A DNA stretch of 64,000 bases, from contig NZ_REGA01000013.1 in assembly GCF_003841505.1 (NCBI RefSeq), positions 1-64,000 of the forward strand, written 5' to 3'. Below the pieces are notes generated by a model. The model ran no database searches and had not been told where the DNA came from. It saw nothing but the letters and a program-made list of their open reading frames with translations. Shown here one piece after another: positions 44,661 through 63,956 of the stretch; the first letter of the stretch is position 1; every line of letters starts with the position of its first letter. The stretch comes from Natrarchaeobius chitinivorans. Lineage in GTDB: Archaea; Halobacteriota; Halobacteria; Halobacteriales; Natrialbaceae. The translations under genes and the position numbers were made by a program.

Positions 44661-46652
44661 ATGAAACGAACACGTCGAAACGTTTTGAGTAACGCGACGA
44701 GACTGTCCGCACTGCTTGCCGGAATCGGTGCAAGCGGTGCAGCAGCGGCCCAGGAGTACCCCGAATGGGACCCCGACACGGCGTATACGGGGGGTGACCG
44801 GGTCGTCTACGACGGCTCTGTTTGGGAAGCCCAGTGGTGGACCCAAGGGGACGAACCGAGTGAGGACTCGAGCGTCTGGGAGCTGGTCGAGGACGGCAAC
44901 GGAGGGAACGACGACGAAAACGGCGACGTCGACTACCCCGCGTGGGATCCCGACGTCGTCTACACCGGCGGCGACCGCGTCGTCTACGACGGCTACGTCT
45001 GGGAGGCCAACTACTGGACCCAGGGAGACGAGCCCGGCGAAAGCGAGTGGGGCCCCTGGGAGGAGATCGAAGAGCACGACGACGATGATGATGACGAGGA
45101 CGAGGACGAACTGACTGCACGATTTACCGTCAGCAACCAGTTCCCGGATCCCGGCGACGAGATCGAGTTCGACGCCTCCGACTCCGAAGGCGAGATCGAG
45201 TCCTACGAGTGGGAGTTCGGCGACGGAACCGAAGCCAGCGGTGAGGTCGTCACACACTCGTTCGACGAGGGTCAGTACGACGTGACGCTGACCGTCGAGA
45301 ACGCCGACGGCGAGACCGACACCGATTCGATCAGGATCACGGCGGGGCGTCCCTCGTCGGACGAAAAGCGCGTCGTCGCGTACTACCGCCAGTGGGCGCA
45401 GTACGATCGCGAATTCGTGCCGGCGGACATCCCGTACGACCAGGTCACGCACGTGCAGTACGCGTTCGCACGACCCGAGTCGGACGGATCGGTCAACCTC
45501 GTCGGCGACTCCCACGGCCAGCAGGCCTTCTGGGCGGAAGAGGACTGGCAGGGTGTCGAGGGCGGCACCTTCGCCGAACACGCCGCCGAGCACGACGACA
45601 CCAAGTTCGTCCTGTCGATCGGCGGCTGGGGCGACTCGCGGTACTTCTCCGATGCAGCGCTGACCCAGGAGAACCGGGAGCGCTTCGCCGAGGACTGTAT
45701 CGAGTGGATCGAACGGGGCAACTTAGACGGCATCGACATCGACTGGGAGTTCCCCGGCGGTGGCGGCTGTACGTCCGAAGACGCCGAAGAGCCCGCCAGC
45801 GTCTGTCCGAGCGATGGCAACATCGTCCGCGAGGGCGACCAGGAGCGCTTTACGCTGCTTTGTGAGACGGTTCGAGAGCGCCTGGACGAGCACGCACAGG
45901 AGGTCGGTCGCGACGAGCCCTACGAGCTCACCGCAGCCGTCTCGGCCAATCCCGACGTCGCCGAAGGAGTCGAGGATGGCAACGACGGACTCGAGCACGA
46001 GAAGCTCTCGGACCTGCTTGATTTCATTCTGGTGATGACGTTCGATTACGCTGGAGTGTGGTCCGAGACGACCCGTCATCACGCCCCGCTGCGGTCGAGC
46101 CCGGACGATCCGTTCGACGAGGCCGACACGTGGAACGCAGAGTACGCACTCCAGTACTGGGAGGAACAGGGCTGGGACCCAGACCAGCTCAACATGGCCG
46201 TCCCGTTCTACGGACGGAGCTGGGACGATGTCCAGCCGCCAGAGGGTGACTTCGGAACCGGCGAGAACGACGGCCTCTTCCAGGAGTACGAGGGTGAAGG
46301 AGCCGACGCCAGCATGGACGGCTCCTATCCGTCGCCTCCCGGCAGCCCCGGCTCCCAGCTTGGCGGTGTCTTCGAGTGGTTCGACCTCGAGGGCGACGGC
46401 CGCGGGGGGAGCAACTCCGTCAACCTGGACAGCTCCGATTGGGAGGTCCACTTCGACGAGGACGCGATCGCCGCGTGGGCCTGGAACGAAACCACCGGGG
46501 AGATGATCAGCTACGAGTCCGAGGAGTCGATGGCAGCCAAAATGAACTGGCTCCGTCAGTCGCCCTACGGCGGGACGATGCTGTGGGCCATCGGTGGAGA
46601 CACCTACGAAGGCGATCTCATCGGGGCCCTCTGGAACAACCTCAACGGCTGA
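44661..46652 (+). CDS. exported GH18 chitinase (CBM5/12 x2, PKD, GH18)
   Basis: The 663-residue enzyme starts with a Tat signal (MKRTRRNVL, cut near AAAQ at about 32). Two chitin-binding CBM5/12 repeats follow (about 33-75 and 94-135, WDP-x-x-x-YTGGDRVVYDG ... WWTQGDEP), then an Asp-rich linker, a PKD domain (about 150-230) and a GH18 barrel (about 238-663). The GH18 motif DGIDIDWE spans Asp356 to Glu363, and MTFDYAG is the later MxxD strand. It hydrolyses chitin outside the cell with retention through the acetamido group. The TGA stop begins a B-type repeat. Part of the N-terminal DNA is nearly identical to that of the gene at 56532. Confidence 0.93.
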   Translation: MKRTRRNVLSNATRLSALLAGIGASGAAAAQEYPEWDPDTAYTGGDRVVYDGSVWEAQWWTQGDEPSEDSSVWELVEDGNGGNDDENGDVDYPAWDPDVVYTGGDRVVYDGYVWEANYWTQGDEPGESEWGPWEEIEEHDDDDDDEDEDELTARFTVSNQFPDPGDEIEFDASDSEGEIESYEWEFGDGTEASGEVVTHSFDEGQYDVTLTVENADGETDTDSIRITAGRPSSDEKRVVAYYRQWAQYDREFVPADIPYDQVTHVQYAFARPESDGSVNLVGDSHGQQAFWAEEDWQGVEGGTFAEHAAEHDDTKFVLSIGGWGDSRYFSDAALTQENRERFAEDCIEWIERGNLDGIDIDWEFPGGGGCTSEDAEEPASVCPSDGNIVREGDQERFTLLCETVRERLDEHAQEVGRDEPYELTAAVSANPDVAEGVEDGNDGLEHEKLSDLLDFILVMTFDYAGVWSETTRHHAPLRSSPDDPFDEADTWNAEYALQYWEEQGWDPDQLNMAVPFYGRSWDDVQPPEGDFGTGENDGLFQEYEGEGADASMDGSYPSPPGSPGSQLGGVFEWFDLEGDGRGGSNSVNLDSSDWEVHFDEDAIAAWAWNETTGEMISYESEESMAAKMNWLRQSPYGGTMLWAIGGDTYEGDLIGALWNNLNG

Positions 46653-51332: not shown

Positions 51333-51893
51333 ATGAAACGCACACGTCGAACGGTACTGCACAACGCGTCGAAACTCACCCTCGCTGTCGGCGGTCTCGG
51401 AATCGCCGGGCCGGCCGGGGCACAGGAGTATCCCGAGTGAGACCCTGGCGAGGTGTACAACTCCGGCGATCGGGTCGCCCTCGACGGCTCCGTCTGGGAG
51501 GCAAACTGGTGGACCCAGGGCGACGAGCCGGGCTCGAGCGACTGGGGTCCCTGGCAGGAAGTCGAAGCGGACGATCCCGATCCGGAGCCACCCGACGGAC
51601 CGACCGCGGCCTTCGACGTCAGCGACGACAGTCCGGCTCCCGGCGAAGACGTCGAGTTCGACGCCTCGACCGCCGAGGGTGAGATCGACTCCTACGAGTG
51701 GGACCTCGGCGACGGCACCGAACTCGAGGGCGAAATCGTCACGCACAGCTACGACGACGATGGAGAGTACGAGGTCGAACTCCGATCACCGACCCGGCCG
51801 GAACGACTCCGGTCGGGTGATCGACGAGAATGGTCCCTCGAGCAGGCACGGGATTCGCTCGTAGTGTACGATCGTCGAACGGAGAACGTGTAA
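51333..51893 (+). pseudogene. dead chitinase: Tat signal, CBM5/12 and PKD, with a nonsense codon and no GH18 domain
   Basis: From ATG 51333 the frame reads MKRTRRTVLHNASKLTL and reaches QEYPE. The conserved Trp36 codon is then TGA (51438-51440). The same frame continues with DPGEVYNSGDRVALDG and WEANWWTQGDEP, then a PKD (YEWDLGDGTELEGEIVTHSY) up to a stop at 51893. The catalytic domain is absent, replaced by about 30 unrelated residues. It is either decaying or a store of modules for recombination. If translated from the GTG at 51453 it would lack an export signal. Confidence 0.8.
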
Positions 51894-52014: not shown

Positions 52015-53928
52015 ATGAGACAGACACGCCGCGATATCCTGATGCGAGCATCGCTGGCCTCGGTCGGCACCCTCGGGGTTGCAGCCACCTCGTCGGTCAC
52101 GGCGACGGAGGGGGAGACTTCGGCGACGGACGTCGATCCCGACTACTCCGTCTTTAACGACCGAGGTCTCTGGGACTGGGTCCCGTACACGATTATCACC
52201 GACGGTGAGACGGTGATGGACGGCTACGACGGTCGGTGGGAACTGTTCTTCGATAAAGCCGACGCCCATTCGATCGGGACGTTCTACCCACACTACTCGG
52301 ATCCGACCGCCGACGAACCCCTGGAAGAACCAGTCCGGGCGGCACCCGACGAGGACGTCGAGCGATTTCTTCGGGCCTGCCACGACCAGAACATCCAGGT
52401 CGAACCGCTCATCGGCGGCGGCGTCGCCGGCTGGGTCGCCTCGGAGGCCTGGCCCCAGGCGGAGTCGATCCTCGAGTGGAACAGCAACCACCCGCCGGAG
52501 GAACGCTTCGACGGTATCCACATCAACGTCGAGAACGGGGACCGCTACGACGTCAAACCCGAGATACTCGATCGACTCGACGACGCCCCCGACGATCTGA
52601 TCGTCTCCATGTCACAGGATCCGCTGTGGGCCAGAAACACCGATAATGATCGTGTGCGCGAAGTGATGGAACACCGGAATCTCGATTACTACTGCACGAT
52701 GGTCTACGATCTCGACATGGACCACTTCTGGCCCAACCTGGGGCGGGTCACCCAGCCCTACGACACCCCGTTCGCGCTGGGCCAGGGGATCAACGAGCAC
52801 GGCCATCCCAACCGAAACTGGGGCGACGCGGATGCGCTCTACGGCTGGGTCGAGGAGAACTGGATCGAAGAGGGTCCGCCAACCGACTACCAGTACATCG
52901 ACGAAGGCACCGGCCAGAAGTACCTGGGGCTGTCGATCCACTCCTTCTGGGGGCTGATCGACGCGCCAGAGGTCGGCGACGAGACGAACATCGGCGAACC
53001 GAGCCGCGAGTACCGGACGGATCCAGCGCCGGGTTCCGGCCCCGACCCCGATCCCGATCCGGACCCCGTGGCGGTGATCACGGCGAGCGACGACGCTGTC
53101 GCACCCGAGGAGACGGTAACCCTCGACGGCGGCGACTCCTCAGCACCCGAAGGAGAGATCGTCGCCTACGAGTGGGACCTCGACGACGGCAGCGAAGCGA
53201 GCGGCGAGACCGTCGAACACGCCTACGACGACGAGGGCGAGTACGTCGTGGAGTTGACAGTGACCGACGATCGCGGCGAAACCGACGCGACGGCGACCAC
53301 TATCGCGGTCGAGGAGCCCGACGAGGACGAGCCAGTCGCCGCCTTCGACGTCGACCCGACCGAACCCGTCGCCGGCGAGGAGGTAACGTTCGACGCCACA
53401 GACTCACACGCGCCGGCGGGCGAGATCGTCGAGTACCTCTGGGACTACGACCTCCAGCCCGGGCTCGAGGAGCGCGGTGAGACCTTCACCCACGTCTACG
53501 AATCAGCCGGCGGCTACGACGTCCGGCTCGTGGTCGTCGACGACGAGGGCCGCGAAGGCGAGACGATTCGGACGGTCACCGTCGCCGAGGACGACGAATC
53601 CGACCCGGACTACCCCGAATGGGAGCCGGATGCGGTCTATCAGGGCGGTGATCGAGTCGTTCACGACGGCACGATCTGGGAAGCTCGGTGGTGGACCCAG
53701 GGCCAAGAGCCCGCTCGCGACGCTGGGCCGTGGGAGCCAGTTCGGGACGTCGACGACGATCCCGATCCTGACCCTGACCCCGACCCCGATTACCCCGCGT
53801 GGGATTCCGATTCCACCTACACGGGCGGTGACCGGGTGACTCACGACGGAACGGCCTGGGAAGCCCAGTGGTGGACCCAGGGAGACGAACCGGGTACGAC
53901 CCAGTGGGGTCCTTGGGAGGAAGTCTGA
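52015..53928 (+). CDS. exported TIM-barrel protein with PKD x2 and C-terminal CBM5/12 x2; distant GH18/GH85-like enzyme
   Basis: The 637-residue protein has a Tat signal (MRQTRRDILMRASLASVG). The module order is inverted relative to the chitinases: barrel first (about 42-330), then two PKD domains (about 345-430 and 440-525), and two CBM5/12 repeats (about 535-637) with Asp-Pro linkers. Barrel strands resemble GH18: EPLIGGGVAGW for the SxGG strand, FDGIHINVE (Asp166, His169, Asn171, Glu173) for DGIDIDWE, and CTMVYDLD (229-232) for MxYD. The Asp that assists catalysis in GH18 is Asn here, leaving an Asn-x-Glu pair as in GH85. No assigned family is recognised with certainty. It probably acts on N-acetylated glycans bound to chitin (inference). 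Confidence 0.8.
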   Translation: MRQTRRDILMRASLASVGTLGVAATSSVTATEGETSATDVDPDYSVFNDRGLWDWVPYTIITDGETVMDGYDGRWELFFDKADAHSIGTFYPHYSDPTADEPLEEPVRAAPDEDVERFLRACHDQNIQVEPLIGGGVAGWVASEAWPQAESILEWNSNHPPEERFDGIHINVENGDRYDVKPEILDRLDDAPDDLIVSMSQDPLWARNTDNDRVREVMEHRNLDYYCTMVYDLDMDHFWPNLGRVTQPYDTPFALGQGINEHGHPNRNWGDADALYGWVEENWIEEGPPTDYQYIDEGTGQKYLGLSIHSFWGLIDAPEVGDETNIGEPSREYRTDPAPGSGPDPDPDPDPVAVITASDDAVAPEETVTLDGGDSSAPEGEIVAYEWDLDDGSEASGETVEHAYDDEGEYVVELTVTDDRGETDATATTIAVEEPDEDEPVAAFDVDPTEPVAGEEVTFDATDSHAPAGEIVEYLWDYDLQPGLEERGETFTHVYESAGGYDVRLVVVDDEGREGETIRTVTVAEDDESDPDYPEWEPDAVYQGGDRVVHDGTIWEARWWTQGQEPARDAGPWEPVRDVDDDPDPDPDPDPDYPAWDSDSTYTGGDRVTHDGTAWEAQWWTQGDEPGTTQWGPWEEV

Positions 53929-54037: not shown

Positions 54038-56254
54038 ATGAGACACACGAGACGCGATGTATTACGGAGTGCAACGTCGATCTCCGCGCTGGGGATCGCA
54101 GCAAGCGCGAGCGCAACAGCATCCGCCGACTGCGAGGGCGTCCCCGAATGGGACCCCGACGCCACCTACACCGGCGGCGACGAGGTCGTCTACGAGGGCG
54201 AACGCTTTACCGCCGAGTGGTGGACCCAGGGCACCGAACCCGACGACGGCGACGCCGTCTGGACCCTCGAGGGCCCCTGCGAGGACGACGGCGGCGAGAG
54301 TGACGGTCCCATCGCGTCGATCGACGTGACGGCGACGACGGTCGAACCCGACGAGACGGTCGAGTTCGACGGGAGTGACTCCACCGGCGGCGATGCGTCG
54401 ATCGAGGGCTACGAGTGGGACCTCACCGGCGACGGCGAGGCCGACGAAACCGGCGAGACAGCGAGTCACAGCTACGCCGAGAGGGGCGAATACACCGTCC
54501 AGTTGACGGTCACCGACGACGAGGGGCGGACGGACACGGCGGTGGTCACGATTACCGTCGGAATCGGGGACGACGGTCCCTGTGGCGGCGTCTCCCGCTG
54601 GGAATCCGACGCCACCTATCAGGGCGGAGACGAGGTCGTCTACGACGCTCACCTCTGGGAGGCCCGGTGGTGGACCCAGGGCGACGAACCCGGGGCCAGC
54701 GACTGGGGACCCTGGGAGAACCTCGAACGCTGCGGCGACGCCGAGACGCCGGATCCGATCGATCGAACGCTCGAGGACGTCGTTCCGAAACCGGTCGACG
54801 TGAGCACGACTGACGCCGAGTTCGAGATCACGGCCGAAACGGCGATCGTCGTCGACGACGAGGCCGAAGCGGTCGGCGAGTCCCTCGCGGACCTCCTGCG
54901 TTCACCGACGGGATACGACCTCCCCCTCGAGGAGGCCCCCTCGGACGCGACCGACGTAATCGAACTCGCAGTCGGGGACCGAACCGACCACCTCGGCGAA
55001 GAGGGCTACGAGCTGGCCGTCGACGAGGACGGCGTCACGATCGAAGCGGCGACCGACGCGGGCCTGTTCTGGGGTGTTCAGTCGCTCCGACAGGTCTTGC
55101 CCGCGGCGGTCGAAGCCGACACCGAGCAGTCCGCCGAGTGGACCGTCCCCGGCGGCGAGATCGTCGACTATCCGCGTTTCGATTTCCGCGGTGCACACCT
55201 CGACGTGGCGCGGCACTTCCGTACCGCCGACGAGATGAAACAGTTCGTCGACTATCTCGCCCAGTACAAGATCAACCACGTCCACATCCACCTGACGGAC
55301 GACCAGGGCTGGCGTCTCGAGATCGAGGAGTGGCCGGAGTTGACCGACGTCGGTGGCCAGTATCAGGTCGACGGCGAGTGTGAGGACTGTTATTATACCC
55401 AGGCGGAGTACGCAGACATCGTCGAACACGCCGAGGATCGCTTTATCACGGTCATCCCCGAGATCGATATGCCTGGCCATACGAACGCGGCGCTGGCGTC
55501 GGTCTGTGAACTCAACTGTGACGACGAGTGCGAGGATCCCTACACCGGTATCGAGGTCGGGTTCAGTTCGCTCTGTGTCGACCAGGAGTTCACTTACGAG
55601 TGGATCGAGGACGTCGTCGCCGAGGTCGCAGAGCTAACTCCGGGGCCGTATTTCCACATCGGCGGCGACGAAGCCGATCCGCTCTCGGACGACGAGTACG
55701 AGTACTTCATGGATCGGGCCGTGCCGATCGTCCAGGACGCCGGCAAGCGGCCGATGGGCTGGCACGAGATCCTCGGTGCGGACCCGCCGACGGAGACGAT
55801 CGGCCAGTTCTGGGCACCGGATTCCACGGCCTCCGGCGTCGACGTTCCGGGTGCTGTCGAGGAGGGCCACGAGATTATCGCCTCGCCGGCCAGCCACGCC
55901 TATCTCGACATGAAATACCACTGGGAGACCGAACTCGGACTCACCTGGGCCGGAACCACGTCCGTGCGAGAGTCCTACGAGTGGGATCCCGGAAGCTACA
56001 TCGACGGCGTCGACGAGTCCTCGATCGTCGGTCCCGAAGCGGCGCTGTGGTCTGAGACCCTCGAAACGTTCGCCGACGTCGAGTTCATGCTGTTCCCGCG
56101 GATCGCGTCGATTGCCGAACTCGGCTGGACGCCCGACGCCGACACCGAGTGGGAGGACTTCCGCGAGCGGGTGGCGGGCCACGGCCCGCGGTGGGACCGC
56201 CAGGGAATCAACTACTACCGCTCCGACCAGATCGACTGGCCGAACGGAGAGTAG
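54038..56254 (+). CDS. exported GH20 beta-N-acetylhexosaminidase with CBM5/12 and PKD modules
   Basis: The 738-residue enzyme has Tat signal MRHTRRDVL, CBM5/12 (about 33-80), PKD (about 88-170), a second CBM5/12 (about 178-230), a GH20b-type N-terminal domain (about 245-375) and the GH20 barrel (about 380-738). The catalytic pair is HIGGDEAD (Asp544-Glu545). Also seen are FDFRGAHLDVARHF and IPEIDMPGHTNAA. It releases GlcNAc from chitobiose and chito-oligomers made by the chitinases. Several Cys residues cluster in CELNCDDECEDPY. It follows the barrel gene by 109 bp and is probably co-transcribed. Confidence 0.94.
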   Translation: MRHTRRDVLRSATSISALGIAASASATASADCEGVPEWDPDATYTGGDEVVYEGERFTAEWWTQGTEPDDGDAVWTLEGPCEDDGGESDGPIASIDVTATTVEPDETVEFDGSDSTGGDASIEGYEWDLTGDGEADETGETASHSYAERGEYTVQLTVTDDEGRTDTAVVTITVGIGDDGPCGGVSRWESDATYQGGDEVVYDAHLWEARWWTQGDEPGASDWGPWENLERCGDAETPDPIDRTLEDVVPKPVDVSTTDAEFEITAETAIVVDDEAEAVGESLADLLRSPTGYDLPLEEAPSDATDVIELAVGDRTDHLGEEGYELAVDEDGVTIEAATDAGLFWGVQSLRQVLPAAVEADTEQSAEWTVPGGEIVDYPRFDFRGAHLDVARHFRTADEMKQFVDYLAQYKINHVHIHLTDDQGWRLEIEEWPELTDVGGQYQVDGECEDCYYTQAEYADIVEHAEDRFITVIPEIDMPGHTNAALASVCELNCDDECEDPYTGIEVGFSSLCVDQEFTYEWIEDVVAEVAELTPGPYFHIGGDEADPLSDDEYEYFMDRAVPIVQDAGKRPMGWHEILGADPPTETIGQFWAPDSTASGVDVPGAVEEGHEIIASPASHAYLDMKYHWETELGLTWAGTTSVRESYEWDPGSYIDGVDESSIVGPEAALWSETLETFADVEFMLFPRIASIAELGWTPDADTEWEDFRERVAGHGPRWDRQGINYYRSDQIDWPNGE

Positions 56255-56531: not shown

Positions 56532-58070
56532 ATGAAACGAACACGACGAGACGTACTACGTAACGCATCGACACTCTCGGCGATTCTGGCTGGCGTCGGC
56601 GTCGGCGCCGCTGGCAGCGCCACAGCACAGGAGTACCCCGAATGGGACCCAGACACGACGTATACGGGGGGTGACCGGGTCGTTCACGAGGGCTCCGTCT
56701 GGGAGGCCAACTGGTGGACCCAAGGGGACGAACCGAGCGAGGACTCGAGCGTCTGGGAACTGGTCGAGGACGGCAACGGAGGGAACGACGACGAAAACGG
56801 CGACGAGGAGTATCCCGCGTGGGACGCCGACGCCGTCTACACCGGCGGCGATCGGGTCGCCCACGACGGCTACGTCTGGGAGGCCAACTGGTGGACCCAG
56901 GGCGACGAGCCAGGGGAAAGCGAGTGGGGCCCCTGGGAGGAGATCAGCGTCTACGATCCCGGTCCGAGCGCCGACTTCGACGTCGATCCCGCATCCCCGG
57001 ACCCAGGCCAGGAAGTCACCTTCGACGGATCGAGCTCCGAGGGAGAGATCGAGAGCTTCGCGTGGGCGTTCGGCGACGGCTCGACTGCAAGCGGCGAGGT
57101 CGTCACACACAGCTACGACGCCGAAGGCGAGTACGACGTCACGCTCACCGTCACCGACGTCGACGGCGAGGAAGACGACACCCAGCGGACCCTCTACGTC
57201 GGCGACGTCGAGGCGCCGACTCCCGACGGAGTGTACACGCCGTATCAGGGAACCTGGTACGACATCGTCGACGGCACTCTCGGCCGCGACACCGACCGCG
57301 TCATCATGTCGTTCATCGGTGACGCCACCCGCGACGACGAGATTTCGCCCGGCTGGCTGACCGGCTGTAACGAGGGGGCGTGCGATCAAGAACCGCTCGA
57401 CACCTACGCCGACGAGATCGACACCCTCCAGGACGAGGGCATCGAGGTCGGCCTCTCGATCGGCGGCTGGGACAGCCCGGTCGTCGCCCGCGACGCCGAC
57501 GATCCCGAGGAACTCAAGGAAGCCTACGCGGATCTCCTCGACTACTTCGGCGTCACGCACATCGACATCGACGACGAGAACGCAGACGACGCCGGCCGTC
57601 GCGACGACCTCCACGAGATTCGCAACGAGGCACTCGCAATGTTGAAAGACGAGCGCCCGGAGGTCACCGTCGGCTTCACGGTGGCTGCGACGCCCGACGG
57701 GATCGTCGATTTCGGCCACTCGCCCGGCAAAATCTTCATCGAGGACGCCGTCGAGAAAGGTCTCGAACTCGACTACGTCCAGCCGATGACGATGCACTTC
57801 GACGGCGCACCGGAGAACTTCGAGACGATCACCTCGTCGCTCGAGGGGACCGTCGACTTCCTCGAGGGAGTATACCCAGACAAGTCTCGAGACGAACTCT
57901 GGTCGATGGTCGGCGTGACGCCGTATCTCGGCGAGATCACGACGGACGTCGCGAGCGATCTCGTCGACTACGCCAACGAGAAGGGTATGTACAGCATCGC
58001 GCCGTGGGTGCTCGGTGAAGACGACGGCGGTGAGTTCTCGGCGATCTTCCACCAGTTCGAAGGGAACTAA
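56532..58070 (+). CDS. exported GH18 chitinase, DIDDE subtype (CBM5/12 x2, PKD, GH18)
   Basis: The 512-residue enzyme has Tat signal MKRTRRDVL, CBM5/12 repeats (about 35-78 and 97-138), PKD (about 147-220) and a smaller GH18 barrel (about 232-512). The active motif is THIDIDDEN (Asp345, Asp347, Glu349), with GLSIGGWDSPVVARD as the SxGG strand. It is a different GH18 subgroup from the genes at 44661, 46976, 49186 and 60607, and is paired with the near-identical barrel at 62592. A stretch of about 190 bp at the 3' end is almost the same in both genes. Confidence 0.92.
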   Translation: MKRTRRDVLRNASTLSAILAGVGVGAAGSATAQEYPEWDPDTTYTGGDRVVHEGSVWEANWWTQGDEPSEDSSVWELVEDGNGGNDDENGDEEYPAWDADAVYTGGDRVAHDGYVWEANWWTQGDEPGESEWGPWEEISVYDPGPSADFDVDPASPDPGQEVTFDGSSSEGEIESFAWAFGDGSTASGEVVTHSYDAEGEYDVTLTVTDVDGEEDDTQRTLYVGDVEAPTPDGVYTPYQGTWYDIVDGTLGRDTDRVIMSFIGDATRDDEISPGWLTGCNEGACDQEPLDTYADEIDTLQDEGIEVGLSIGGWDSPVVARDADDPEELKEAYADLLDYFGVTHIDIDDENADDAGRRDDLHEIRNEALAMLKDERPEVTVGFTVAATPDGIVDFGHSPGKIFIEDAVEKGLELDYVQPMTMHFDGAPENFETITSSLEGTVDFLEGVYPDKSRDELWSMVGVTPYLGEITTDVASDLVDYANEKGMYSIAPWVLGEDDGGEFSAIFHQFEGN

Positions 58071-58278: not shown

Positions 58279-59964
58279 ATGGCAGAAAGTAATAATCACG
58301 ACGATCCCGGACGGCGGGACGTGCTCCGAAGCCTCGGGGCAATCGGCGGTGTCGCAGCGCTCAGTGGAGTGACGGTCGCACAACCCGGACGCGAACCGGG
58401 CCCGAAACCGGACGAGTTGTTGGTCGGAACGGCACCGACCGTACAAACGGTATCGGTACAGCAGAACGTACAACGGGAGCTCCCAGCCGACGCGAGTGTC
58501 GTCCATCGAAACGACACGCTCGGCTACTTCGCCGTCGAGCTTCCCGACGAGGCGAGTGCACAGTCCGATTCGGCAGTGGCACAGCGAATCGAACGGACCG
58601 ACGGCGTCGCGTTCGTCGAAGAGAATGGAACGTACTACGCGCTCGAGCAGTCGGTCGACCCCGAACAGTACGTGCCGGACGATCCCGGATTCGATCAGCA
58701 GTACGCGCCACAGCTGGTCAACGCGCCGGAGGCCTGGGAGACGACGCTCGGCTCCTCGGACGTGACGATCGCGATCGCGGACACGGGAACCGACTACGAC
58801 CATCCGGACCTGCAGGCGCAGTTCGGCTCGAATCCAGGGACCGACCCCGCCGACGGAACGGGTGATCCCGACGCGCGGGGTTCGGCTCACGGAACGCACG
58901 TTTCGGGGATCGCCTCCGCGACGACCGACAACGGACAGGGAGTCGCCGGCATTTCGAACTCGCATCTGTACGCGGTTCGCGTCCTCGGCGGGGGTGGTGG
59001 CGGTTCCTGGAGCGAGATCGCCGACGGTATCCAGTGGTCGGCAGACAACGGTGCCGACATCGTTAACCTGAGCCTCGGAGGACAGCAAGCGAGCGGAGTC
59101 ATCCAGAGCGCGATCGACTACGCGTACAATAACGGGACGCTCCCGATCGCCGCGGCAGGAAACGACGGGCCGTGCAGCAACTGCGTCTCCTATCCGGCGG
59201 CGTTCTCGAACTGTGTGGCCGTCTCGGCCATCGATTCCTCCGAGAACCTCGCACACTTCAGCAGTACCGGACCCGAAATCGACGTCGCTGCGCCGGGAGC
59301 GGGTGTCCTCTCGACGATGCCAAACGGCGGGTACGACACCATGTCCGGTACGTCGATGGCGTCTCCCGCGGCGGCCGGCGTCGCCGCGCTCGGACTGGCG
59401 GCCAACCCCGAGTGGGGCCCGGGTGAGTTGCGACAGGCCCTCGAGGAGACCGCCGTCGACATCGGTCTTCCCGGAAGCCAGCAGGGATCCGGTCGGGTCG
59501 ACGCGGCGAACATCGTCGGCGAGAACGGCGATCCGCCGGACGACGTCACGGCGGTCGCCGACGCCTCGCCGTCGGTCGCCGATCCCGGCGAGACCGTAAC
59601 GTTCGACGGCAGCAGTTCGTCCGGCCCAATCGAGAGCTACCAGTGGGAACTGGGCGACGGAACCGAGGCAAGTGGCGAAAGCGTCGAACACGCCTACGAC
59701 AACGAGGGCGAGTACACCGCAACGCTTTCGGTCTCCGGCGGTGGCGACACCGACAGCGATTCGGTGACCGTCACCGTCGACGAAGACGACGACCCGGAGC
59801 CGCCGGGTGACTGCGGCGACTACCCGACCTACGACAACGCGACGGTCTACGCTCCCGGCGACCGCGTCGCCTACGACGGCGCGGTCTGGGAGGCCGAAAT
59901 GGAGGTCATGACGGTCCCGCCGAGCCACGGGAGCATGTGGTGGTCACACGTCCAGGATTGCTAA
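58279..59964 (+). CDS. exported subtilisin-like protease (halolysin) with PKD and CBM5/12-like tail
   Basis: The 561-residue protein has a Tat signal (GRRDVLRSLGAIGG), an I9-type propeptide (about 40-130) and an S8 catalytic domain with triad Asp168 (ADTGTD), His204 (AHGTHVSG) and Ser359 (SGTSMASP). A PKD domain follows (about 430-505). The C-terminal module of about 50 residues (YPTYDNATVYAPGDRVAYDG ... VWEAEM) follows the CBM5/12 plan, with two Cys framing it. Among chitinases, such a protease would strip protein from chitin-protein complexes or mature the other exoenzymes. Confidence 0.92.
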   Translation: MAESNNHDDPGRRDVLRSLGAIGGVAALSGVTVAQPGREPGPKPDELLVGTAPTVQTVSVQQNVQRELPADASVVHRNDTLGYFAVELPDEASAQSDSAVAQRIERTDGVAFVEENGTYYALEQSVDPEQYVPDDPGFDQQYAPQLVNAPEAWETTLGSSDVTIAIADTGTDYDHPDLQAQFGSNPGTDPADGTGDPDARGSAHGTHVSGIASATTDNGQGVAGISNSHLYAVRVLGGGGGGSWSEIADGIQWSADNGADIVNLSLGGQQASGVIQSAIDYAYNNGTLPIAAAGNDGPCSNCVSYPAAFSNCVAVSAIDSSENLAHFSSTGPEIDVAAPGAGVLSTMPNGGYDTMSGTSMASPAAAGVAALGLAANPEWGPGELRQALEETAVDIGLPGSQQGSGRVDAANIVGENGDPPDDVTAVADASPSVADPGETVTFDGSSSSGPIESYQWELGDGTEASGESVEHAYDNEGEYTATLSVSGGGDTDSDSVTVTVDEDDDPEPPGDCGDYPTYDNATVYAPGDRVAYDGAVWEAEMEVMTVPPSHGSMWWSHVQDC

Positions 59965-62385: not shown

Positions 62386-62591
62386 ATGTGCTCGAGTAAT
62401 CTCGCTCGAGTGAACGCACTCGGGACGTCCCGAAAGGACGGTCGTTCGCGGACGCGACGACGGTTCGAAGTGGCTGATCGCGGACGCACTGGCCGTTCGA
62501 AGAGCGGACCACGGCTTGCACACACGTTCGCAGTTTGCGATGCGACACGAATCGCTCGTCAAACGAACGCTGCGGCATACGAACGAATACG

Positions 62592-63956
62592 ATGAAACCA
62601 ACACGACGAACGCTGCTACGAAACGCATCGAACGTATCGATCCTGCTCGGCGGCCTCGGCGTCGCCAGCACGACCGCTACTGCAGAAGAGTATCCCGAGT
62701 GGGATCCAGACGAAACGTACACCGAAGGCGACCGCGTCGTCCACGACGGGACCGTCTGGGAAGCCCAGTGGTGGACCCGGGGTGACGAACCCGGAACAAA
62801 CGAGTGGGGGCCCTGGGACGAAGTCGAAACGCACGATCCTGGGCCGAGCGCTTCCGTCACTGTCAGTGACTCGAGTCCCGAACCCGGCGAGGAAATCACG
62901 TTCGACGCGAGCGATTCGGACGGTGACCTCGAAGACTACGCGTGGGAATTCGGCGACGGGACGACTGCAACCGGCGAGGTCGTCACACACTCCTACGACG
63001 CCGAAGGCGAGTACACGGTCGAACTCACGGTGACCGACGTCGACGGCGAGGAAGACGACACCCAGTCCACGGTTTACGTCGGCGACGACGAGGTGTCGGA
63101 TGCCGACGGCATTTACTCTCCGTATCAGGGGACCTGGTACGACGTCGTCGACGGCACCCTCGGGCGCGACACCGACCGCGTCATCGTGGCGTTCGTCGGC
63201 GATCCCCATCGAAACGGCGAAATATCGCCCGCCTGGCTCGCAAACTGTAACAACCACGAGTGTGAGGGTGAATCACTCGACACCTACGCCGACGAGATCG
63301 ACACCCTCCAGGGCGAGGGCATCGAGGTCGGCCTCTCGGTCGGCGGCTGGGAGAGTCCCGTCGTCGCTCGCGACGCCGACGACCCCGAGGAGCTCAAAGA
63401 CGCGTATATCGATTTACTCGACACGTTCGACGTCACTCACCTCGACATCGACGACGAGAACGCCGAGGCTCCCGATCGACCCGACGACCTCCACGAGATT
63501 CGCAACGAAGCGCTCGCGTTGCTCAAAGACGAGCGTCCCGATGTGACCGTCGGCTTCACCGTCTCGGCTAGCCCGGACGGTTTCGCGGACTCCGGTCACT
63601 CCCCCGGAAAGGTGTTCATCGAGGACGCCGCCGAGAAAGGCCTCGAACTCGACTACGTCCAGGCGATGGCGATGCACTTCGAAGACGAACCCGAGAACTT
63701 CGAGACGATTACCTCGGCACTCGAAAGCGGGGTCGACTTCCTCGAGGGAGTATACCCAGACAAGTCTCGAGACGAACTCTGGTCGATGGTCGGCGTGACG
63801 CCGTATCTCGGCGAGATCACCACCGACGACGCGAGCGATCTCGTCGACTACGCCAACCAGAAGGGGATGTACAGCATCGCACCGTGGGTGCTCGGTGAGG
63901 ACGACGGTGGCGAGTTCTCGGAGGTCTTCTACGGGTTCGAAGGAGACGCAAACTAA
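62592..63956 (+). CDS. exported GH18 chitinase, DIDDE subtype (CBM5/12, PKD, GH18)
   Basis: The 454-residue enzyme has Tat signal MKPTRRTLLRNAS, a single CBM5/12 (about 36-76), PKD (about 83-160) and a barrel (about 172-454) with THLDIDDENAEAP (Asp285, Asp287, Glu289). The barrel is nearly the same protein as in the gene at 56532, with one chitin-binding module fewer. It lies 206 bp after the preceding chitinase with no A+T-rich tract between, so the two may share a transcript. Confidence 0.92.
   Translation: MKPTRRTLLRNASNVSILLGGLGVASTTATAEEYPEWDPDETYTEGDRVVHDGTVWEAQWWTRGDEPGTNEWGPWDEVETHDPGPSASVTVSDSSPEPGEEITFDASDSDGDLEDYAWEFGDGTTATGEVVTHSYDAEGEYTVELTVTDVDGEEDDTQSTVYVGDDEVSDADGIYSPYQGTWYDVVDGTLGRDTDRVIVAFVGDPHRNGEISPAWLANCNNHECEGESLDTYADEIDTLQGEGIEVGLSVGGWESPVVARDADDPEELKDAYIDLLDTFDVTHLDIDDENAEAPDRPDDLHEIRNEALALLKDERPDVTVGFTVSASPDGFADSGHSPGKVFIEDAAEKGLELDYVQAMAMHFEDEPENFETITSALESGVDFLEGVYPDKSRDELWSMVGVTPYLGEITTDDASDLVDYANQKGMYSIAPWVLGEDDGGEFSEVFYGFEGDAN

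Follow-up and report, generated by a model that had tools for sequence, protein, structure and literature searches.

The window analysed here, a stretch of 64,000 nucleotides from the salt-loving, chitin-degrading archaeon Natrarchaeobius chitinivorans (assembly GCF_003841505.1, contig NZ_REGA01000013.1, positions 1 to 64,000), is a chitin-use cluster encoding an IclR-type regulator, a CE14-type deacetylase, a dehydratase and a sugar ABC transporter, together with GH18 genes at 44661, 46976, 49147 and 60289 and a GH20 gene at 54038-56254. The gene under study lies between GH18 genes and the GH20 gene, with the deacetylase, transporter and regulator upstream of it, and encodes an exported modular protein (Table 1). 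A genome paper on Natrarchaeobius from 2025 counts, in each cluster, one or two genes for chitin-binding proteins that lack a GH18 domain, and marks an 'ambiguous chitinase' (PMC12343721). Two short GH18-like proteins in the window, at 56532-58070 and 62535-63956, have THIDIDDEN or THLDIDDEN replacing DGxDIDWE and are possibly the ambiguous chitinases of that paper; the first scores 25.0 against the GH18 profile PF00704, below the Pfam cut-off of 29.6 bits, and the second gave no GH18 match at E≤0.001. Directly upstream of the gene, at 51333-51893, is a CBM5/12-PKD gene remnant, interrupted in frame by a stop codon following residue 35 (QEYPE-stop) and lacking a downstream domain. The reading frame of its counterpart in N. 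chitinivorans AArcht7 (about 5635-7494 of L016) is open and runs into a domain of ~330 residues of unknown family.

Table 1. Features of the barrel gene and its product, in window coordinates.
Feature	Position	Strand	Basis
Whole gene, exported modular protein, 637 aa	52015..53928	+	ORF and translation; ATG at 52015, stop 53928; orthologues L016, L015
Twin-Arg type signal peptide, MRQTRRDIL..., boundary approximate	52015..52107	+	RR motif read directly in sequence
GH18-related TIM-barrel domain (likely kinship), without Pfam/NCBIfam model	52147..52974	+	Profile matches, AlphaFold2 model
DGIHINVE, residues 166-173, end of strand 4	52510..52533	+	Stands where GH18 has DGxDxDxE
N171 (codon AAC); E173	52525..52527; 52531..52533	+	Translation
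MVYD, residues 229-232, end of strand 6	52699..52710	+	Alignments and model
PKD domain 1	53062..53301	+	Pfam PF18911/PF00801
PKD domain 2, bounds approximate	53314..53589	+	Pfam second stretch; ColH PKD-type matches at residues 366-528
CBM5/12 module 1	53617..53736	+	PF02839
CBM5/12 module 2	53797..53916	+	PF02839

After the signal peptide come a barrel of ~275 residues (roughly residues 45-320), a pair of PKD domains and a pair of CBM5/12 modules, and all four accessory modules exceeded their Pfam cut-offs, as the original prediction from the bare sequence had anticipated. The GH18-like landmarks that it had named are likewise all present in the barrel: a GGG strand (PLIGGG, on strand 3), DGIHINVE, and MVYD on strand 6, which corresponds to the MxYD feature of GH18. 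Compared with the DxDxE motif of GH18, the translation retains the Glu, while the middle Asp is replaced by His (H169) and the last by Asn (N171), giving the HxNxE site expected. The module order had been described as inverted relative to every neighbour, which is incorrect. In the GH18 and GH20 neighbours the order is CBM-PKD-catalytic. The S8 protease encoded at 58279-59964, in contrast, shares the arrangement of the barrel gene, catalytic-PKD followed by a CBM5/12-like C-terminus. This protease, lying inside the chitin cluster with its PKD and CBM5/12-like C-terminus, perhaps serves protein-coated chitin.

The barrel gave no Pfam match at E≤10, GH18 (PF00704) included, and no NCBIfam match, and a single-sequence PDB search with the window protein returned chance matches to Mre11 only. 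No GH20 profile match (PF00728), which with an adjacent Asp-Glu pair would mark that family, was found in the protein, and the GH97 Pfam profiles matched neither it nor the homologues scanned. Profiles of the family reached further. Against the PDB, profile A5 matched the entry 10YV over its whole length (E=7.7e-19), followed by GH18 chitinases at 1e-5 to 1e-3. Since A5 included two GH18-like members, L020 and L021, the search was repeated with a profile leaving both out (A11); 10YV was again the best match (4.9e-20), and most of the others were still GH18 enzymes, weakened to 0.0008 at best. A profile of the close clade alone reached only E=0.03 for the GH18 link, and weakly matched the GH18-like protein PPL-2. 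When aligned with hhalign to the GH18 domains of the window itself, DGIHINVE fell on DGIDIDWE, with probabilities of 43-47%. One row (L017) of alignments A4, A5 and A7, and likewise one plasmid-search query, carries a single wrong residue, K instead of R, close to the N-terminus and away from the motifs; A8 and A10 are exact.

Kinship of the barrel to the GH18 superfamily is likely, because one homologue (L020) scores above the PF00704 cut-off (41.6 bits, E=1.6e-10), the family profiles match GH18 chitinases and the motifs on strands 4 and 6 correspond, although the link of the window protein itself is indirect. GH18 chitinases of clan GH-K (e.g. 5JH8, chitotriosidase and OfChtIV) share with it the barrel order, a DG-x-x-x-x-x-E stretch ending strand 4 and MxY(D) at strand 6, whereas the window protein lacks a PF00704 match, has HxNxE for DxDxE and shows no trace of an insertion domain like that of GH18. 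Without that match and the DxxDxDxE motif, it would not be classed as GH18 by sequence. We instead regard the barrel as belonging to a putative un-named family related to GH18, 'un-named' being judged against Pfam and NCBIfam. Origin by duplication of a neighbouring chitinase is ruled out, as the original prediction had argued on other grounds, since the barrel is of a different family. An AlphaFold2 model of the barrel, built from six exact sequences, is a TIM barrel with a pTM of 0.76, and the other model, for which the Natronococcus homologue was placed first, has eight regular beta/alpha units (pTM 0.80); in the models strand 4 terminates in HxNxE and strand 6 in MxY. The predicted TIM barrel is thus supported, but the fold comparison singles out no one family, GH18 included: Foldseek returned TIM barrels for both models, in a mix of GH20, GH84, GH18 and unrelated barrels.

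Relatives were gathered from searches of 100, 391, 393 and 392 genomes, a species-collection scan and plasmid searches; the window protein itself found no copy on the plasmids searched, and no copy turned up in the viral contigs scanned. The family alignment comprises 28 sequences from haloarchaea, Methanosarcinales-type archaea, an actinobacterial MAG, Bacilli and Devosia. The Glu is kept in 26 of them. Most have Asp two residues ahead of it, and nearly all have His, Asn or Gln at the middle position. In the core alignments A4, A5 and A11, the Glu and the Met and Tyr of MxY are invariant. Asn two residues before the Glu is found in the window protein, in N. chitinivorans AArcht7, Halomicrobium katesii, Natronococcus and genome G247, and in one unaligned relative (L037), and only Asp or Asn occurs there among the relatives, degenerate Methanosarcinales-type paralogues apart. 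On the tree the Asn state takes three changes, at least two of which are forced by well-supported branches. His for the middle Asp is therefore old and family-wide, and Asn for the last Asp later and recurrent; the substitutions are real but not peculiar to the window protein. A Glu on strand 7 (GxET) is conserved in bacterial and polysaccharide-locus members, while the window clade has GQGIN instead.

The closest orthologues are those of AArcht7 (L016), from the same genus, with a barrel 94% conserved, and of H. katesii (L015), with 80% conservation. Both have the HxNxE site and the identical barrel-PKD-PKD-CBM order; they differ from the window in that Pfam detects one CBM5/12 in the AArcht7 protein and that the H. 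katesii gene sits outside the GH18 clusters of its genome. A relative in YIM A00010 (L018) keeps the Asp (HIDVE) and is encoded between GH18 chitinases, with one frameshift in the deposited contig. Further away, 'hypothetical proteins' of Bacillus, Paenibacillus, Priestia, Pontibacillus, Planococcus and a Devosia plasmid (L049-L052, L067-L070) belong to the same barrel family by its profile (E 1e-20 to 1e-93), but most have HxDxE or NxDxE, no CBM5/12 was noted in them, and several lie near polysaccharide genes. In Natronococcus amylolyticus (L014/L003), a member with HLNVE adjoins a processive GT2-type polysaccharide synthase and is likely an exopolysaccharide-locus hydrolase. Four Methanosarcinales-type proteins of ~650-730 aa (L026, L036, L023 and L024) carry the barrel toward the C-terminus with degenerate sites (NIALNP, DITLDP, NIYMEP) and are probably non-catalytic; L026 (NIALNP) and L036 (DITLDP) have lost the Glu.

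One member of the family already has its structure solved. PDB 10YV, deposited as 'Putative GH97 from Cellulomonas fimi', is a protein of 275 aa that belongs to the barrel family by profile match over the whole domain, with HVQLDVEP at the equivalent place. It is a single domain, unlike the window protein, with Q and D where the latter has H and N, and the Tyr of MxY is Phe. As the barrel family has no Pfam GH97 match, the GH97 label looks doubtful, and our literature search found no paper describing the entry. The proposal of a new glycoside hydrolase family is supported in so far as Pfam and NCBIfam have no model for the barrel, but its novelty is reduced by this deposited member and by the earlier remarks on non-GH18 chitin-binding genes in such clusters (PMC12343721).

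Between the window and AArcht7, the barrel has a dN of 0.029 and a dS of 0.548 (dN/dS 0.053), against a dN/dS of 0.148 for the PKD/CBM part of the same protein; three true GH18 domains compared between the same two genomes gave 0.123, 0.123 and 0.153. The barrel is the most constrained among the domains measured, and this value, with its conservation in two other species, argues that it is no chance reading frame. The four sampled genomes with the window clade (G000, G001, G175 and G756) have 5, 7, 7 and 6 GH18 matches and all have CBM5/12, whereas none of the six with distant members only (G052, G247, G331, G397, G217 and G370) has a GH18 match, with one CBM5/12 match in total. The Natrarchaeobius genome G003 has GH18 genes and no copy of the barrel gene, which is therefore dispensable for chitin use. 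The chitin link is specific to the clade, found only in GH18-rich genomes, yet not obligatory.

These data lead us to hold, with moderate confidence at best, that the window protein is an exported, chitin-tethered glycosidase of the un-named GH18-related family, substrate-assisted with an Asn. A role on chitin is favoured by the CBM5/12 and PKD modules, the position in the cluster and the co-occurrence with GH18. The same evidence backs the chitin half of the suggestion that the protein is aimed at chitin-linked glycans, but its context points to chitin itself rather than linked glycans. Catalysis and substrate, like each step that follows, are what we infer. The PKD spacers and the two CBM5/12 modules would keep the protein on chitin, where the barrel would cleave beta-linked N-acetylglucosaminides by substrate assistance. 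E173 would give a proton to the glycosidic oxygen, and an oxazoline would arise through attack of the substrate's 2-acetamido group on the anomeric carbon; N171 would orient and stabilise the acetamido group, assisted by Y231, in the manner of the Asn and Tyr in GH85, and H169 would take the place of the middle Asp of GH18, as across most of the family.

The parallel with GH85 had been drawn in the original prediction, and it holds for chemistry and not for kinship. The active site of the GH85 enzyme Endo-A reads DGWFIN-Q-E and MWYD, and its N171, E173 and Y205 are critical: the Asn orients the acetamido group, the Glu is the acid and the Tyr assists, and N171A abolishes hydrolysis (PMC2646837). 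The window protein resembles it in the N-x-E pair (N171-V-E173, the matching numbers being coincidental) and the Tyr of M-x-Y-D. That it might itself be a GH85 endo-beta-N-acetylglucosaminidase acting on N-glycans, as Endo-A does, is highly improbable despite the resemblance of D-G-x-x-I-N-x-E and M-x-Y-D to Endo-A (PMC2646837), since neither Pfam at E≤10 nor the profile searches of the PDB gave a GH85 match, the Tyr follows the Glu by 58 residues (E173, Y231) rather than 32 (E173, Y205), and the default residue of the family is D rather than N. GH85 is an analogy for the window protein, not its family.

The Asp replaced here by Asn matters greatly in GH18, and its replacement could mean loss of catalysis. 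The missing strand 7 Glu of the window clade and the lack of the gene in G003 also count against the glycosidase reading. Damaged GH18 sites are familiar from binding proteins, and these too would be conserved. The window protein might accordingly be a chi-lectin-like pseudo-enzyme in which Asp to Asn ended catalysis and the barrel binds or loosens chitin, aiding the GH18 and GH20 enzymes encoded nearby. The pattern is known among GH18-like lectins (PMC3662789), the genome paper lists such genes as chitin-binding without a catalytic domain (PMC12343721), and the close-clade profile has its weak match to PPL-2. L026 and L036, being without the Glu, indicate that non-catalytic descendants exist in the family. 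We nevertheless consider this unlikely, though the strongest of the alternatives: the window protein retains both Glu and Tyr, N alternates with D in its branch with no drift to other residues, and the barrel is under the tightest constraint, which lowers the alternative without removing it, as a lectin would be constrained too. The literature reports, as far as we found, no activity for any member of the barrel family.

It is rather less probable still that the protein is an active glycosidase whose substrate is a different polymer within or accompanying chitin, e.g. exopolysaccharide or deacetylated stretches, using a family-specific His/Asn/Glu chemistry without acetamido assistance. The replacement of the middle Asp by His, Asn or Gln throughout the family would fit such a chemistry, as would the surroundings of several relatives, with the GT2-type synthase beside the Natronococcus gene, a GT4 gene near that of Priestia, a glycosyltransferase near that of Devosia, and polyphosphate polymerase, DUF4956 and CotH genes near that of Planococcus. 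The window clade differs from those relatives in its association with CBM5/12 and with genomes that carry GH18, which speaks against this reading.

Returning to the substrate-assisted glycosidase, the presence of Asn in the window, AArcht7 and H. katesii proteins and of Asp in that of YIM A00010 means that the residue central to substrate assistance in chitinase-type enzymes varies within a single clade, which makes the use of Asn for Asp outside GH85 directly testable. Tentatively, the family may be a new, uncatalogued glycoside hydrolase family of a kind with GH18 and GH85, with a working His-x-(Asp/Asn)-x-Glu site. Its interchange of Asp and Asn at the acetamido-orienting position in evolution would provide natural intermediates between GH18 (Asp) and GH85 (Asn), and one archaeal branch of it would have been recruited to chitin when it acquired PKD and CBM5/12 modules. 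The findings point to a widespread barrel family missed by Pfam and NCBIfam, give PDB 10YV a family assignment, and, in the chitin clusters of haloarchaea, may account for one or more of the genes described as 'chitin-binding, no catalytic domain'.
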